Assembly (NCBI GenBank): GCA_902517495.1
Contig: CABYCO010000003.1
Span: 23,886-87,885 of the forward strand
DNA from: an uncultured Pelagibacteraceae bacterium
Lineage (GTDB): Bacteria > Pseudomonadota > Alphaproteobacteria > Pelagibacterales > Pelagibacteraceae
Direction: 5' to 3'
DNA length: 64,000 bases
Shown here: one piece after another, positions 6,092 to 62,334 of the stretch
Numbering within the stretch: the stretch's first letter is position 1
How the letters are laid out: every line of letters starts with the position of its first letter
Made by a program: the position numbers and the translations under genes
Notes under the pieces: model-generated
The model's database searches: none
What the model was told of the DNA's origin: nothing
Seen by the model: the letters and a program-made list of their open reading frames with translations, nothing else

Positions 6092-6655
6092 TTATCTAGG
6101 AGATCTTTTAGATAATATTCTCTGAAGAGTTCTTCTATGCATTTTTAGTCTTCTTGCAGTTTCAGAGACATTTCTGTTACATAACTCAAAAACTCTGTGT
6201 ATATGCTCCCATTTTACTCTATCGGCAGACATTGGGTTTTCGGGAGGAGCAGGCTTTTGATTTGGGTCAGCTAAAAGTGCTTTTTCAACATCATCTGCAT
6301 CTGCAGGCTTCGCAATGTAGTCAATTGCTCCCTCTTTAATTGCAGCAACTGCTGTTGGAATATTACCATATCCAGTTAACATTATAATTCTACTTTTAAG
6401 GTTTCCCTTTTGAATTTCTTTTACTACTTCTAGTCCATTCCCATCATTTAATCTTAAATCAACAACGGCAAACGCTGGACTTTGCGATTTTACAGTCTCA
6501 ATGCCAATTTTTACACTCTCTGCTTGTGTAACTGTAAAACCTTTTTTTTCCATGGCCCTAGCCAATCTCTGTCTAAATGGATTGTCATCATCTACTATCA
6601 AAAGCGATTTATCCTCGAAATCACTTAGTTTTTGAAGTGTTGGTTGATTAATCAT
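6092..6655 (-). CDS. regA: RegA/PrrA/ActR-type response regulator
   Basis: Receiver (LLIVDDDNPFRQRLARAME) plus Fis-type HTH C-terminus NVSETARRLKMHRRTLQRILSKRSPR typical of RegA/ActR. Confidence 0.88.
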   Translation of the reverse strand: MINQPTLQKLSDFEDKSLLIVDDDNPFRQRLARAMEKKGFTVTQAESVKIGIETVKSQSPAFAVVDLRLNDGNGLEVVKEIQKGNLKSRIIMLTGYGNIPTAVAAIKEGAIDYIAKPADADDVEKALLADPNQKPAPPENPMSADRVKWEHIHRVFELCNRNVSETARRLKMHRRTLQRILSKRSPR

Positions 6656-6723
6656 AACTCATATATGGAAGTAAATTTTAATATTTCAATAGCATTATTT
6701 ACTTTACATTATTAATTATTTCC

Positions 6724-6742
6724 CATAAATGCTGCATTTATG
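6724..6742 (+). repeat. perfect inverted repeat CATAAATGC-T-GCATTTATG in the regA/decarboxylase intergenic region
   Basis: 9-bp arms read directly, 1-nt centre; potential operator or RNA stem-loop. Confidence 0.8.
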
Positions 6743-6745
6743 AAA

Positions 6746-6774
6746 CTTGCATATGTGTTATGCAGGTTTTTTTT
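6746..6774 (+). terminator. intrinsic-terminator-like hairpin in the leader of the polyamine cluster
   Basis: CTTGCATA-TGTGT-TATGCAGG (8 bp, one G-U) followed directly by T8, 25 nt upstream of the decarboxylase ATG. Confidence 0.65.
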
Positions 6775-6799
6775 GTAAATTTTTTTTAGAGGTGCAGAT

Positions 6800-7978
6800 A
6801 TGCAAAAATTTAAGTCAGTTGAACAATTAGTTAACCAACTGAGACCGACAGGACCTGTTTATTGTATTAGAAAAGAGTCAATTAAATTGGCATCTAAATA
6901 CTTCCAAAAGAATTTTCCAGGACAAATACTATACGCATTAAAAACTAACCCTCATCCAGTAGTTCTTAAAACTATTGTTGAAAGTGGTATAAATCGTTTT
7001 GACGTAGCATCTATCAAAGAAATAGAGGCTATAAGAAAAATAAGTCCAGATGCCAACTGTTCTTATATGCATACTGTAAAAAGTAGAGAGAGTATAAAAG
7101 AGGCATATTTCAAATATAATGTTAAAGCGTTTTCTTTGGATACTAAAGACGAATTAATAAAAATCTTAGATAGTACAAATTATGCTAAAGATTTAGAATT
7201 ATTTGTTAGAGTTTCTGTTTCTAATGAACATGCAGAAATTGATTTATCAAAAAAATTTGGAGCCATCAATAATGAAGCAGCTGGTTTACTTAGGTTAACA
7301 AAACAATATTCTAAAAAAATTGGACTTGGTTTTCATGTTGGCTCACAATGTATGCACCCTATATCTTATTCAAAAGGAATAATTGAAATCAATAATATAA
7401 TTAAGAAAACAAAAATTATTCCAGATGTAATTAATGTTGGAGGTGGTTTTCCTACTATTTACCCTGATCTTATTCCTCAATCTTTAGATAGTTACTTTAA
7501 CGAAATTAAAAAAGGTTTAAGTAATTTAAAGTTAGATATTCTTCCAGAAATAATTTGTGAACCTGGAAGAGCGATTGTTGCAGAAAGTGGTTCAACAATA
7601 GTAAGAGTTGATTTAAGAAAAAAACAAAAACTTTATATAAATGATGGAACTTATGGAACATTATTCGATGCAGGTGTTCCTAACATAGTTTACCCATCAA
7701 AAATGATAACTGATGGAAGAGTAATTTCTAAAAAATTAACATCTTTCGATTTCTACGGCCCAACTTGCGATAGTATGGATTATATGAAAGGTCCTTTTAT
7801 TTTACCAAATAATATTAGAGAAAATGATTATATAGAATTAGGACAGCTTGGAGCGTATGGATTAACTTTTAGAACTAATTTTAATGGATTTTACTCTAAT
7901 GAAATTTACGAAGTTGAGGATAATCCAATCATGACGATGTATGACAAAGAAGCAAATAAAGAGTTTCTTGTTGCTTAA
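6800..7978 (+). CDS. fold-III PLP-dependent decarboxylase, ornithine decarboxylase-like
   Basis: ILYALKTNPHP (PLP lysine motif), HVGSQC, CEPGRAIVAESG, GPTCDSMD as in the ODC/DapDC family; 392 aa. Confidence 0.85.
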   Translation: MQKFKSVEQLVNQLRPTGPVYCIRKESIKLASKYFQKNFPGQILYALKTNPHPVVLKTIVESGINRFDVASIKEIEAIRKISPDANCSYMHTVKSRESIKEAYFKYNVKAFSLDTKDELIKILDSTNYAKDLELFVRVSVSNEHAEIDLSKKFGAINNEAAGLLRLTKQYSKKIGLGFHVGSQCMHPISYSKGIIEINNIIKKTKIIPDVINVGGGFPTIYPDLIPQSLDSYFNEIKKGLSNLKLDILPEIICEPGRAIVAESGSTIVRVDLRKKQKLYINDGTYGTLFDAGVPNIVYPSKMITDGRVISKKLTSFDFYGPTCDSMDYMKGPFILPNNIRENDYIELGQLGAYGLTFRTNFNGFYSNEIYEVEDNPIMTMYDKEANKEFLVA

Positions 7979-9018
7979 TGTCAGATAATAAAAACCAATC
8001 AAATAATAGAAAAAGTGACTTACTTAGTAAAGAAGTAGAGCATATTGATATAACTTCTTTTGATGCTAGAAAAATCGTTTCTTCAATGGAAAAAATGTCT
8101 TTCGTTTCAAGAGAGACTGCAAATGCAGCAAATATTTATAATGAAATGATAAAAGATAAAGATTGTACAATTTTTTTAACACTCGCAGGATCAACATCTG
8201 CCGCAGGATGTATGCATATTTATAGAGATTTAGTTAAATATAATATGGTAGATGCAATAGTCGCTACTGGAGCTTCTATTATTGATATGGATTTCTTTGA
8301 GGCACTTGGTTTTAAACATTATCAGGGATCCCAATATCAAGATGATACAGAGTTAAGGAATAATTATGTTGATAGAATATATGATACTTATATTGATGAA
8401 GAAGAGCTTCAGATGTGCGATAAAACCATTGGTGAAATTGCAGATGAATTAGAGCCTAAAAGCTATACTTCAAGAGAATTTATAAAAGAGATTGGTAAAT
8501 ATCTTAAAACTAACGCCAAGAAGAAAGATTCATTAATAGAGGTTGCTTATGACAACAATGTTCCAATTTTCTGTCCAGCGTTTACTGATTCAAGCGCAGG
8601 ATTTGGTCTTGTAATGCACCAAGAAAGAAGCCCAAAAAATCATATCACAATCGACTCAATCCGAGAGTTTAGAGAATTAACTGAAATTAAAATTCAATCT
8701 AAAGGATCAGGTCTTTTTATGATTGGAGGAGGCGTACCTAAAAATTTTATTCAAGATACAGTCATATGTGCTGAACTTTTAGGTAAAGATGTAGATATGC
8801 ATAAATATGCCATTCAAATAACAGTTGCTGATTCTAGGGATGGAGCATGCAGTAGCTCAACATTAAAAGAGGCAAGCTCATGGGGCAAAGTAGACATAAC
8901 CAAAGAGCAAATGGTTTTTGCAGAAGCTACAAGTGTGCTACCCTTAATAGCAAGTGATGCCTATCATAAAGGTGAATGGAAAAATAGAGAAAGAAAAAAT
9001 TTTTCCAAGATATTTTGA
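7978..9018 (+). CDS. deoxyhypusine synthase-like protein (possible homospermidine-type synthase)
   Basis: VPIFCPAFTDSSAGF, GSGLFMIGGGVPKNF and the SWGK motif containing the catalytic lysine of DHS; sits in a polyamine cluster. Confidence 0.85.
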   Translation: MSDNKNQSNNRKSDLLSKEVEHIDITSFDARKIVSSMEKMSFVSRETANAANIYNEMIKDKDCTIFLTLAGSTSAAGCMHIYRDLVKYNMVDAIVATGASIIDMDFFEALGFKHYQGSQYQDDTELRNNYVDRIYDTYIDEEELQMCDKTIGEIADELEPKSYTSREFIKEIGKYLKTNAKKKDSLIEVAYDNNVPIFCPAFTDSSAGFGLVMHQERSPKNHITIDSIREFRELTEIKIQSKGSGLFMIGGGVPKNFIQDTVICAELLGKDVDMHKYAIQITVADSRDGACSSSTLKEASSWGKVDITKEQMVFAEATSVLPLIASDAYHKGEWKNRERKNFSKIF

Positions 9019-9021
9019 TTA

Positions 9022-9903
9022 ATGACCAAAAAAATCAAAATTGGTTTAATTCAAAGTAAATCTTTAGGGACAATTCAATCTAATATTGATTTAGCTATAA
9101 AAAATATTAAAAAAGCTGCAAACAAAAAGGCAAAGATAATATGTCTACCAGAACTATTTTTAACTAATTACTTTTGCCAAACAGAAAGTCATTCAAATTT
9201 TAAATTAGCAGAAAAAATTCCAGGAAAAATCTCAGGTATATTTTGTGATTTAGCAAAGGAGCTTGGTGTTGTGTTGAATCTTACTATGTTCGAAAAAAAA
9301 ACATCTGGATTTTATCATAATACTAGTATCATTATTAATGAAAATGGTAATATTCTATCTAAATATCGTAAGATGCACATACCTGATGACCCAGGGTATT
9401 ATGAAAAATTTTATTTCAGTCCTGGAGACTTAGGTTTCAAAAGTGTGAAAACTAAATTTGGCAAGATAGGTCCTCTTATATGTTGGGATCAATGGTTCCC
9501 CGAAGCAGCTAGATTAACGGCTTTAAAAGGGGCTCAAATTATTTTTTATCCTACTGCTATTGGATGGCATCCAAAAGAAAAAAGAAAGCTTGGAAAATCT
9601 CAATTAGATTCTTGGGTCACAATGCAAAAATCTCATGCTATTGCTAATGGAACTTATGTGGCTGCTATAAATAGAGTTGGGATAGAAAAAAAAGGTAAGA
9701 AAAAAATCGAATTTTGGGGTAATTCAATGGTGATAGATCCTAGTGGGAAAGTAATTGCAAAAGCAGGAAATAAAAAAGAGGATATTTTAGTTTGTGAAAT
9801 AGATTATAAAAAAATAGATACTGCTAGACAGCACTGGCCTTTTTTAAGAGACAGAAGAACTGAATTTTACAAAGATATTCTCAAAAATCCTGAAGATGAA
9901 TAA
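9022..9903 (+). CDS. aguB: carbon-nitrogen hydrolase, N-carbamoylputrescine amidase-like
   Basis: Nitrilase Glu-Lys-Cys motifs (CLPELFLTNYF, YRKMHIPDDPGYYEKFYF, GPLICWDQWFPEAAR); adjacent to aguA. Confidence 0.9.
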   Translation: MTKKIKIGLIQSKSLGTIQSNIDLAIKNIKKAANKKAKIICLPELFLTNYFCQTESHSNFKLAEKIPGKISGIFCDLAKELGVVLNLTMFEKKTSGFYHNTSIIINENGNILSKYRKMHIPDDPGYYEKFYFSPGDLGFKSVKTKFGKIGPLICWDQWFPEAARLTALKGAQIIFYPTAIGWHPKEKRKLGKSQLDSWVTMQKSHAIANGTYVAAINRVGIEKKGKKKIEFWGNSMVIDPSGKVIAKAGNKKEDILVCEIDYKKIDTARQHWPFLRDRRTEFYKDILKNPEDE

Positions 9904-10960
9904 AAAAATAAATGAATTTAGAATGCCAGCAGAATGGGAGCCTCAAAAATCAGTTTGGATGGCTTGGCCTCATAATAAAAATGATTGGCCTGGATTATTT
10001 GAAAAGATTCCAAATGTAGTTGGAAGAATAATCAAATATTTAACAAAACATCAAAGAATAGATTTATTAGTCAATAATACTAAAAGTGTTGATACCATAA
10101 GAATATATTTAAAAAAAATAGGTTGTAATATATCTAATATTAAATTTCATAAACTAAAGACAGACAGGCTTTGGTTAAGAGACTCTGGGCCAATATTTTT
10201 GGTCAACAACAAAAATAGAAAAAAGACCATGCTTGATTTTAAATTTAATGCCTGGTCAAAATATAAAAACTTCAAAAATGATAACAAAATCAATAGCCAT
10301 ATTAGTAAATATTTAAATATTAAAAGTATTTTGCCTAAAAAAGTAAATTCAAAAAAATTTGTAAGAGTAGTGATGGAAGGGGGTGCATTTGACAATAATG
10401 GATCAGGCTCCATATTGCTTACAAAGGAGTGCTTATTAAGTAGTAAACAAGAGAGAAATAAAGGTTTTAAAAAAATTGATTATGAAAATCTATTTTCAAA
10501 ATATTTAAATGCAAAAAATTTCATTTGGCTTAATAAAGGAATTGTAGGAGATGACACACACGGTCATATCGATGATATTGCAAGGTTTGTTTCAAAAAGT
10601 ACAATTATGATAGCTGTAGAAAAGAATAGATCAGATAAAAATTATAATTTTCTTAAAGAAAATATAAAAATATTAAGTAATAGTTATGACGAAAACGGAA
10701 AAAAATTAAAAATTATAAAGATACCTATGCCAAGCCCAGTTGTCATAAACAAAACTCGTGTCCCAGCAAGTTATTTAAATTTTTTCATAAGTAATAAAAC
10801 AGTCTTGGTTCCAGTATTTAATGTGAAAGAAGACAAAAAGGTTTTAAAAATTTTTAGAAAGTTTTTCACAAATAGAAAAGTTATCGCTATTGATTGTAGT
10901 GATTTAATTTGGGGTTTTGGAGCTATTCATTGCATGACTCAACAAGAGCCAAAAATTTGA
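9896..10960 (+). CDS. aguA: agmatine deiminase / PPAD family
   Basis: RMPAEWEPQKSVWMAWPHNKNDWPG, RLWLRDSGPIF, GDDTHGHIDDIARF, C-terminal GFGAIHCMTQQEP. Confidence 0.93.
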   Translation: MNKKINEFRMPAEWEPQKSVWMAWPHNKNDWPGLFEKIPNVVGRIIKYLTKHQRIDLLVNNTKSVDTIRIYLKKIGCNISNIKFHKLKTDRLWLRDSGPIFLVNNKNRKKTMLDFKFNAWSKYKNFKNDNKINSHISKYLNIKSILPKKVNSKKFVRVVMEGGAFDNNGSGSILLTKECLLSSKQERNKGFKKIDYENLFSKYLNAKNFIWLNKGIVGDDTHGHIDDIARFVSKSTIMIAVEKNRSDKNYNFLKENIKILSNSYDENGKKLKIIKIPMPSPVVINKTRVPASYLNFFISNKTVLVPVFNVKEDKKVLKIFRKFFTNRKVIAIDCSDLIWGFGAIHCMTQQEPKI

Positions 10961-53677: not shown

Positions 53678-54694
53678 TTAATTCGTAATCTGATCAATTA
53701 TTTTCGATCTTTTATATAATCCTAAGCCTTCAGCTTTATGTTTTAACTTATTATATTCAGACTTTAAGTTTTCAGTATTTGCATTAATTTTATTTCCAAT
53801 CTCAATTATTGATCCAATGATTGGATCAATTTCTAGAGGACGTTTTGCATGTAAATCTTGAGTAGTAGATGGTTTATGGCCTTTTATTGAGATTGCTGCT
53901 TTAATTCTATGATCTATCGAAACATTAAATTTAACTCCAATTTTTTCTCCCACTGACTGACATTCCTCCATCAATTTTCTCACTGTTTTCAATAGTTCTG
54001 GGTCATCTCCAATCTCATCCAAAGATTTATCGTGTAGTGCGCTTACAATATTAAATGAACAATTACCCCAGAGTTTTATCCATATTTCATCTCTTAGGTT
54101 GCTTTTTTGTGGTGCTTTTAAACCTCCTGCAATTAATAAGTCTGCAATAATTTTAAGTCTTTCTGATTTTGATCCATCAGGTTCGCCTAATGTAAATCTT
54201 TCACCACCATTGTGTTTAATAACACCAGGTTCAGTAATTTCAGCTGCTGGATAAACCACACATCCAAGGGCTCTTGAAGGTTTTAAAGAATTCCAAATTT
54301 TACCATCAGGATCAACGCTATCTATATGTTTCTCATCTAAGTTTGTCCCTGTGTTAGCTTTATGAAAATACCACCACGGTAAGCCATTTACAGCAGATAT
54401 TATAGTTGTATTTTTTCCAATTAAGCTTTGAAGAGATTCTACTATGTTAGTAATCGCGTGAGCTTTCACTGAAATAAAAATATAATCTTGAATCCCAAGT
54501 TCTTTAGGATCATCTGTTACTTTTAATTTAAAGTTTTCTGATTTATCATTTTTAATTAATGTTAAGCCGTTTTCTTCTATAGCTTTTTTGTGTGGACCTC
54601 TGGCTACGAGCGATAAATCAATATTATTTTTACTCAAACATGCAGCTAAATATCCACCAATTGATCCTGCACCAAATATACAAACTTTTTTCAT
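53678..54694 (-). CDS. ketopantoate reductase family protein (PanE/ApbA-like)
   Basis: CIFGAGSIGGYLAACLSKNN, SAVNGLPWWYFHK, KLWGNCSFNIVSALH, GHKPSTTQDLHAKRPLEID. Confidence 0.85.
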   Translation of the reverse strand: MKKVCIFGAGSIGGYLAACLSKNNIDLSLVARGPHKKAIEENGLTLIKNDKSENFKLKVTDDPKELGIQDYIFISVKAHAITNIVESLQSLIGKNTTIISAVNGLPWWYFHKANTGTNLDEKHIDSVDPDGKIWNSLKPSRALGCVVYPAAEITEPGVIKHNGGERFTLGEPDGSKSERLKIIADLLIAGGLKAPQKSNLRDEIWIKLWGNCSFNIVSALHDKSLDEIGDDPELLKTVRKLMEECQSVGEKIGVKFNVSIDHRIKAAISIKGHKPSTTQDLHAKRPLEIDPIIGSIIEIGNKINANTENLKSEYNKLKHKAEGLGLYKRSKIIDQITN

Positions 54695-62230: not shown

Positions 62231-62334
62231 CCGTTTCCGCAAAATACAGCAATTTGCGGTGTCTTTGGCAACAAAGAGATCGACACCAGTCAGCGAGAGT
62301 TCGCCCACTGGTGCGATACTTGCTGGATGTGATT
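62231..62334 (+). promoter_or_regulatory. structured 5' leader RNA of ffh (candidate cis-regulatory RNA)
   Basis: GC-rich island in AT-rich DNA with helices CCGCAAA/TTTGCGG, CTTTG-GCAA-CAAAG (GNRA loop), GGTGTC/GACACC, CACCAGT/ACTGGTG, CAGCGAG/CTTGCTG, ending at the ffh ATG. Confidence 0.8.

Follow-up and report, generated by a model that had tools for sequence, protein, structure and literature searches.

Terminator hairpins in the leaders of biosynthetic operons are a well-known kind of element. Amongst leaders ahead of polyamine genes, the alphaproteobacterial speF element is large, with several stems and approximately 80 conserved nucleotides plus further sequence, reaching up to 400 nt, and it showed no binding to any of the polyamine metabolites assayed (Corbino et al., 2005; PMC1273637). 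The Salmonella speF leader with orf34 measures approximately 516 nt and involves a translated upstream ORF (uORF), Rho and arginine codons (PMC6386406). The HMP-PP (thiS) riboswitch requires a pseudoknot formed by nucleotides that are strictly conserved (PMC6478431). Within 'Candidatus Pelagibacter ubique', a screen that picked long, GC-rich intergenic regions yielded the rhtB elements, about half of which have a U tract of 6–9 residues downstream (Meyer et al., 2009; PMC2704228).

The leader described herein lies within a 64 000 nt stretch of DNA (the window) from an uncultured Pelagibacteraceae bacterium, whose genome comprises approximately 1.05 Mb in 46 contigs. It is a new example of this known kind of element, with an unusually short leader. 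Like speF (RF00518), it precedes a COG0019-type polyamine decarboxylase gene in the alphaproteobacteria and begins near the putative start; unlike speF, it spans only some 60 nt and consists of a single hairpin and a U tract. With Salmonella speF/orf34 (PMC6386406) it would share premature termination in a polyamine decarboxylase leader, which we infer for SAR11; it differs in having no conserved uORF and in a termination signal that would be intrinsic. As in the HMP-PP riboswitch (PMC6478431), the terminator-shaped hairpin makes up more or less the entire element and no distinct aptamer precedes it, but the loop of the SAR11 hairpin is not conserved. The rhtB element (PMC2704228) is likewise a small SAR11 leader hairpin, whereas none of the elements listed in that survey precedes the decarboxylase operon.

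The leader matches no Rfam family, in keeping with the initial annotation, which had recognised no known riboswitch in it, and RF00518 was unmatched in the window, in SAR11 relatives and in 20 other alphaproteobacterial loci. The known ffh leader element (RF01793) does occur in the window, at 62269–62321 (58.4 bits). Decarboxylase leaders from other alphaproteobacteria contained nothing similar. Amongst the publications searched, none described the leader, and the 2009 survey of structured RNAs in P. ubique omits it.

Locus and comparative sample

The genes flanking the leader are as follows.

6092–6655, minus strand: divergent gene for an ActR/PrrA/RegA-type response regulator (NF033791, 310.6 bits, cut-off 250)
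6800–7978, plus strand: PLP-dependent decarboxylase of the fold-III lysine/ornithine decarboxylase type
7978–10960, plus strand: remaining polyamine cluster, encoding deoxyhypusine-synthase-like, N-carbamoylputrescine-amidase-like and agmatine-deiminase-like proteins

The nearest solved structures to the decarboxylase are lysine/ornithine decarboxylases. The second gene of the cluster (7978–9018) scores 578.5 bits with the NCBIfam model NF002699 for 1,9-bis(guanidino)-5-aza-nonane synthase, which has a cut-off of 500, and the product of the cluster may therefore be a guanidino polyamine derived from agmatine rather than homospermidine; a range of polyamine compounds is used by SAR11 (PMC8437039). 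As first noted, no plus-strand gene nearby upstream needs a terminator, the neighbour at 6092–6655 being on the minus strand. This RegA-type gene has a conserved promoter-like arrangement of its own within 6655–6689 of the minus strand, with TTGAAA (6689–6684), 17 bp and ATATAT (6666–6661). The last of these is only 5 nt ahead of the ATG, and the mRNA may thus be leaderless, or almost so.

Searches for the decarboxylase covered 399 genomes at genus level, 197 at family level (18 of these a second time, for coordinates) and 115 at class level. Upstream DNA was compared at 195 decarboxylase loci from 13 genera; genera are coded g1–g14, with g1 being that of the window.

The promoter and the palindrome

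Four features lie ahead of, or at, the predicted 5′ end of the transcript.

6703–6708, plus strand: −35 box TTTACA (context CTTTACATT) of the decarboxylase promoter, conserved in family leaders
6724–6742, no strand: perfect palindrome over the −10 box, discriminator and start, without support as an RNA hairpin
6725–6730, plus strand: −10 box ATAAAT after a 16-bp spacer, followed by the discriminator GCTG; WTAAWT and GC occur at a fixed distance from the −35 box
6736–6740, plus strand: predicted transcription start, from the −35/−10 spacing

When 101 non-redundant leaders from 13 genera were anchored on TTTAC, C−1, TTTAC and AT proved near-invariant at the −35 position, and a conserved CTTTACAT was followed by WTAAWT and GC at a fixed distance. 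This layout (CTTTACA, 16 bp, WTAAWT, GC) is kept across the SAR11 family, with TTGACA at the same −35 position in some g3 leaders. From the motif pair and its 16-bp spacer we infer a sigma-70-type promoter with a start at approximately 6736–6740. The conserved spacing bears out the earlier proposal that TTTACA at 6703–6708 places the palindrome over the −10 box and start.

The palindrome itself, CATAAATGC-T-GCATTTATG, is present and perfect at 6724–6742. It had been taken for the first of two tandem stem–loops in the leader; with the start as predicted, only its right half would be transcribed, and the covariation check proposed for it, applied to the aligned leaders, found 70.2 % of its pairs kept against 68.7 % after shuffling, 101 of the 500 shuffles scoring at least as well. 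Perfect palindromes with arms of at least 9 and a spacer of at most 3 number seven in the window versus 5.3 ± 2.5 in dinucleotide shuffles, and that at 6724–6742 is at chance level for a 64-kb AT-rich window. The longest palindrome of the window is a perfect one at 53808–53830 with 11-bp arms (ATTGATCCAATGATTGGATCAAT). As an RNA hairpin the candidate was rejected on account of its promoter overlap, its pairs at shuffle level and its chance frequency.

The palindrome might alternatively serve as an operator for a DNA-binding regulator, such as the divergent RegA-type protein. A perfect 9+1+9 palindrome does span the −10 box and start in the window's own sub-clade, and the divergent neighbour is indeed a RegA/PrrA-type response regulator. 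Yet it is largely intact only in that sub-clade, and even there its right arm decays (changes to GCACTTATG, GCAATTATG and GCACGTATG). Elsewhere the site is non-palindromic, with conservation confined to the left half, that is the −10 box and discriminator. Given this decay, together with the chance frequency of palindromes of this size, the dedicated operator suggested initially is highly improbable. The alignments point to the palindrome being, in one sub-lineage, simply the stretch of promoter that holds the −10 box and discriminator, and not an RNA stem–loop.

A conserved terminator-shaped hairpin

Immediately downstream of the predicted start are the two features that carry the main finding.

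6742–6770, plus strand: terminator-shaped hairpin of 12 pairs (6742–6753/6759–6770) with a 5-nt loop, from pairing and compensatory changes
6767–6774, plus strand: U8 tract directly at the stem, with 7–10 U residues in leaders across the genus

An 8-bp hairpin followed by T8, 25 nt before the decarboxylase ATG at 6800, had been described at the outset. Hairpin and T8 are present at that distance, whilst the stem is longer, at 12 pairs, the outermost of which use the first U residues of the tract. The result is a stable hairpin with a U tract immediately 3′, the arrangement of an intrinsic terminator, and it is placed as an attenuator would be, between the conserved −35/−10 pair, with its predicted start, and the ATG 25 nt downstream. 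The minimum free energy of the hairpin is −13.5 versus a mean of −4.5 in shuffles of the same stretch (z −4.7). The entire 131-nt leader folds at a z of only −1.46, and a crude terminator scan of 4 kb returned two sites versus 1.5 expected.

Evidence for maintenance of the structure comes from relatives. In an alignment of 27 leaders with a CTTGCAT-type stem, 94.4 % of cells were paired, a value reached by none of 500 shuffles, with slid controls at 33–59 %; three pairs of this stem have changed on both sides. Other members of the genus carry a second stem type of unrelated sequence, AAAGTTTTT/AAAAACTTT, at the same place. RNAalifold gave no consensus pair for an alignment of the AAAGTTTTT type, because aligning by sequence leaves the variable arms out of register, and per-sequence folds were used in its place for these leaders and for those of g2/g4. 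The predicted stem ends inside a tract of 7–10 U residues, mostly 8, in 104 of the 106 distinct genus leaders. In a set of 17 leaders that were less than 62 % alike, z averaged −2.6 and P was below 0.05 for 13. Stems of the AAAGTTTTT type are in many cases weak, at −4 to −7 kcal/mol with one or two G–C pairs. The covariation check proposed for the hairpin thus found it conserved with compensatory changes, and the comparison indicates that the hairpin at 6742–6770 with its U8 is real and evolutionarily conserved.

A competing structure had also been envisaged, in which upstream CUGCAU pairs with AUGCAG of the stem as an antiterminator, making an attenuator possible, with a polyamine or ornithine signal offered as speculation. 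Taken further, the leader would be a riboswitch or antiterminator-type attenuator responding to a polyamine-pathway metabolite. The complementarity is there in the window; across the leaders, however, the pairs are kept at shuffle level (68.8 % versus 67.7 %, 101 of 500 shuffles as high), and most of CUGCAU lies upstream of the predicted start. The antiterminator, the competing structure that a conditional attenuator would use, was accordingly rejected. Nor was a conserved loop or uORF found in the leaders, with fewer than approximately 10 nt ahead of the hairpin. The loop is variable, and the conserved nucleotides of an aptamer are missing from both places. The frame MKLAYVLCRFFL (6740–6778, with its ATG at 6740) was discarded as a leader peptide, being absent from most leaders, and no conserved short frame overlaps the terminator-shaped hairpin. 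Since antiterminator, loop and uORF all lack conservation and so little sequence precedes the stem, a conventional riboswitch is unlikely; control of the stem by CUGCAU in particular, which also has no Rfam match in its favour, seems very improbable.

The leader between the U8 tract and the start codon

Two further features separate the U8 tract from the decarboxylase gene.

6775–6787, plus strand: GUAAA-U8 in the window's own clade, RUUAAA-U8 in most of the genus; conserved
6788–6792, plus strand: Shine–Dalgarno sequence AGAGG

Amongst the 106 distinct genus leaders, the second U8, after RUUAAA, is conserved as well as the first. Leader positions 6776–6784 (UAAAUUUUU; UUAAAUUUUU in most of the genus) are complementary to codons 2–5 at 6804–6812 (AAAAAUUUAA), a pairing that would enclose the Shine–Dalgarno sequence and AUG. 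This start-codon hairpin is predicted in approximately 86 % of distinct genus leaders, the window itself preferring a shorter one, and codons 2–4 of the decarboxylase show zero silent variation in 126 sequences. Codons 2–5 are, though, almost all A/T-ending across the genes of the window, and because this silent-site bias is general in the genome, the conservation could stem from codon usage close to starts; the start-codon hairpin is a lead, and the evidence for it is weak.

Distribution across SAR11 and within the genome

Beyond the window's genus, the single g11 and single g14 leaders display the same terminator-shaped layout. An alternative leader is found in g2/g4 (loci L139, L150–L154, L158, L161, L162, L165–L168, L176 and L178), where a related U8-AUUAAA-U6 sits inside a different hairpin (arms AAGG/CCUU, AAGC/GCUU or AGAG/CUCU), with no terminator hairpin ahead of it. 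This hairpin is followed by a near-invariant UGUGU...GGG.ACACA stem with the Shine–Dalgarno sequence in its loop, the UGUGU/ACACA stem being all that RNAalifold recovered. Leaders from g3, g5, g7 and g12 folded no better than shuffles. On this distribution, the terminator shape seems to belong to the g1 group. The U-tract element is probably older, and its presence in g2/g4 without a terminator hairpin suggests that it may predate any role in termination. In many other genera (L121–L178), ATGAGATG or ATGAAATG stands at the decarboxylase start, which places an ATG in another frame 5 nt ahead of the likely start codon.

A covariance model built from the leader scored strongly once in each genome. 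In those genomes with listed positions for match and decarboxylase alike, the strong match fell next to the decarboxylase gene; the sister family f115 gave no good one. A wider regulon with this motif was considered and rejected on these grounds, other matches being weak. An exact copy of the double-U-tract pattern is found at one other site in the genome, within a different gene and on the opposite strand. The window contains only 13 inter-ORF regions longer than 30 bp; the leader is the sole hairpin-plus-T-tract amongst them, and no other intergenic hairpin followed by T5 was found in the 64 kb at −5 kcal/mol or better. Intrinsic terminators therefore seem rare in this genome.

Proposed role of the leader

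With somewhat better than even confidence, we read the hairpin and U8 as a promoter-proximal intrinsic terminator, acting as an attenuator or a fixed brake at approximately +5 to +38. The operon would be transcribed from the −35 (6703–6708) and −10 (6725–6730) boxes, starting at approximately 6736–6740, and the first element to be transcribed would be the hairpin (approximately +5 to +33) with its U8. A part of the polymerases would stop at around +36, whilst the rest would continue via RUUAAA-U8, the Shine–Dalgarno sequence and AUG into the polyamine genes, such that the hairpin sets or modulates operon expression, probably as a brake. A terminator so near a start site is unusual. Since the loop is not conserved and fewer than approximately 10 nt precede the hairpin, any regulation should work directly on hairpin or polymerase, through a protein, polymerase speed or pausing, or polyamine effects on folding, and not via an upstream aptamer. 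One specific form of this, a minimal attenuator without a sensor in a streamlined genome, no more than approximately 10 nt from the start, in which hairpin folding, or polymerase pausing at the paired U tracts, answers polyamine levels directly, possibly with a second, translational gate from UUAAAUUUUU/codons 2–5 pairing, appears very unlikely.

Besides this unusual closeness to the start, three observations sit uneasily with attenuation: weak AAAGTTTTT-type stems may terminate poorly, the equal conservation of the second U8 and RUUAAA is unexplained by termination, and the related U8-AUUAAA-U6 of g2/g4 has no terminator hairpin ahead of it. The main rival, which we consider possible rather than probable, is that the hairpin is a non-terminating 5′-terminal element of the mRNA. 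It would shield the transcript against decay or hold the AU-rich ribosome-binding region open, and S1 or another RNA-binding protein would dock on the U tracts. A predicted 5′ end within approximately 10 nt of the stem would suit such an element, as would conservation of RUUAAA-U8 beside the Shine–Dalgarno sequence and the different 5′ hairpin, without a terminator, in the sister genera g2/g4. A stabilising hairpin, however, need not end exactly in a U tract, yet all but two of the genus leaders do so. The stem sequence has been replaced, yet stem and U tract continue to meet; selection for intrinsic termination would be expected to leave this pattern, whereas a generic 5′ hairpin has no need of it, which points to the terminator reading.

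Significance

SAR11 bacteria rank amongst the ocean's most abundant cells and possess few transcription regulators. The conserved leader hairpin is therefore a concrete candidate for control of a pathway without a dedicated protein. If it works in this way, the leader, as the sole intergenic terminator-like structure in the 64-kb window, may represent a rare use of intrinsic termination in the SAR11 lineage.
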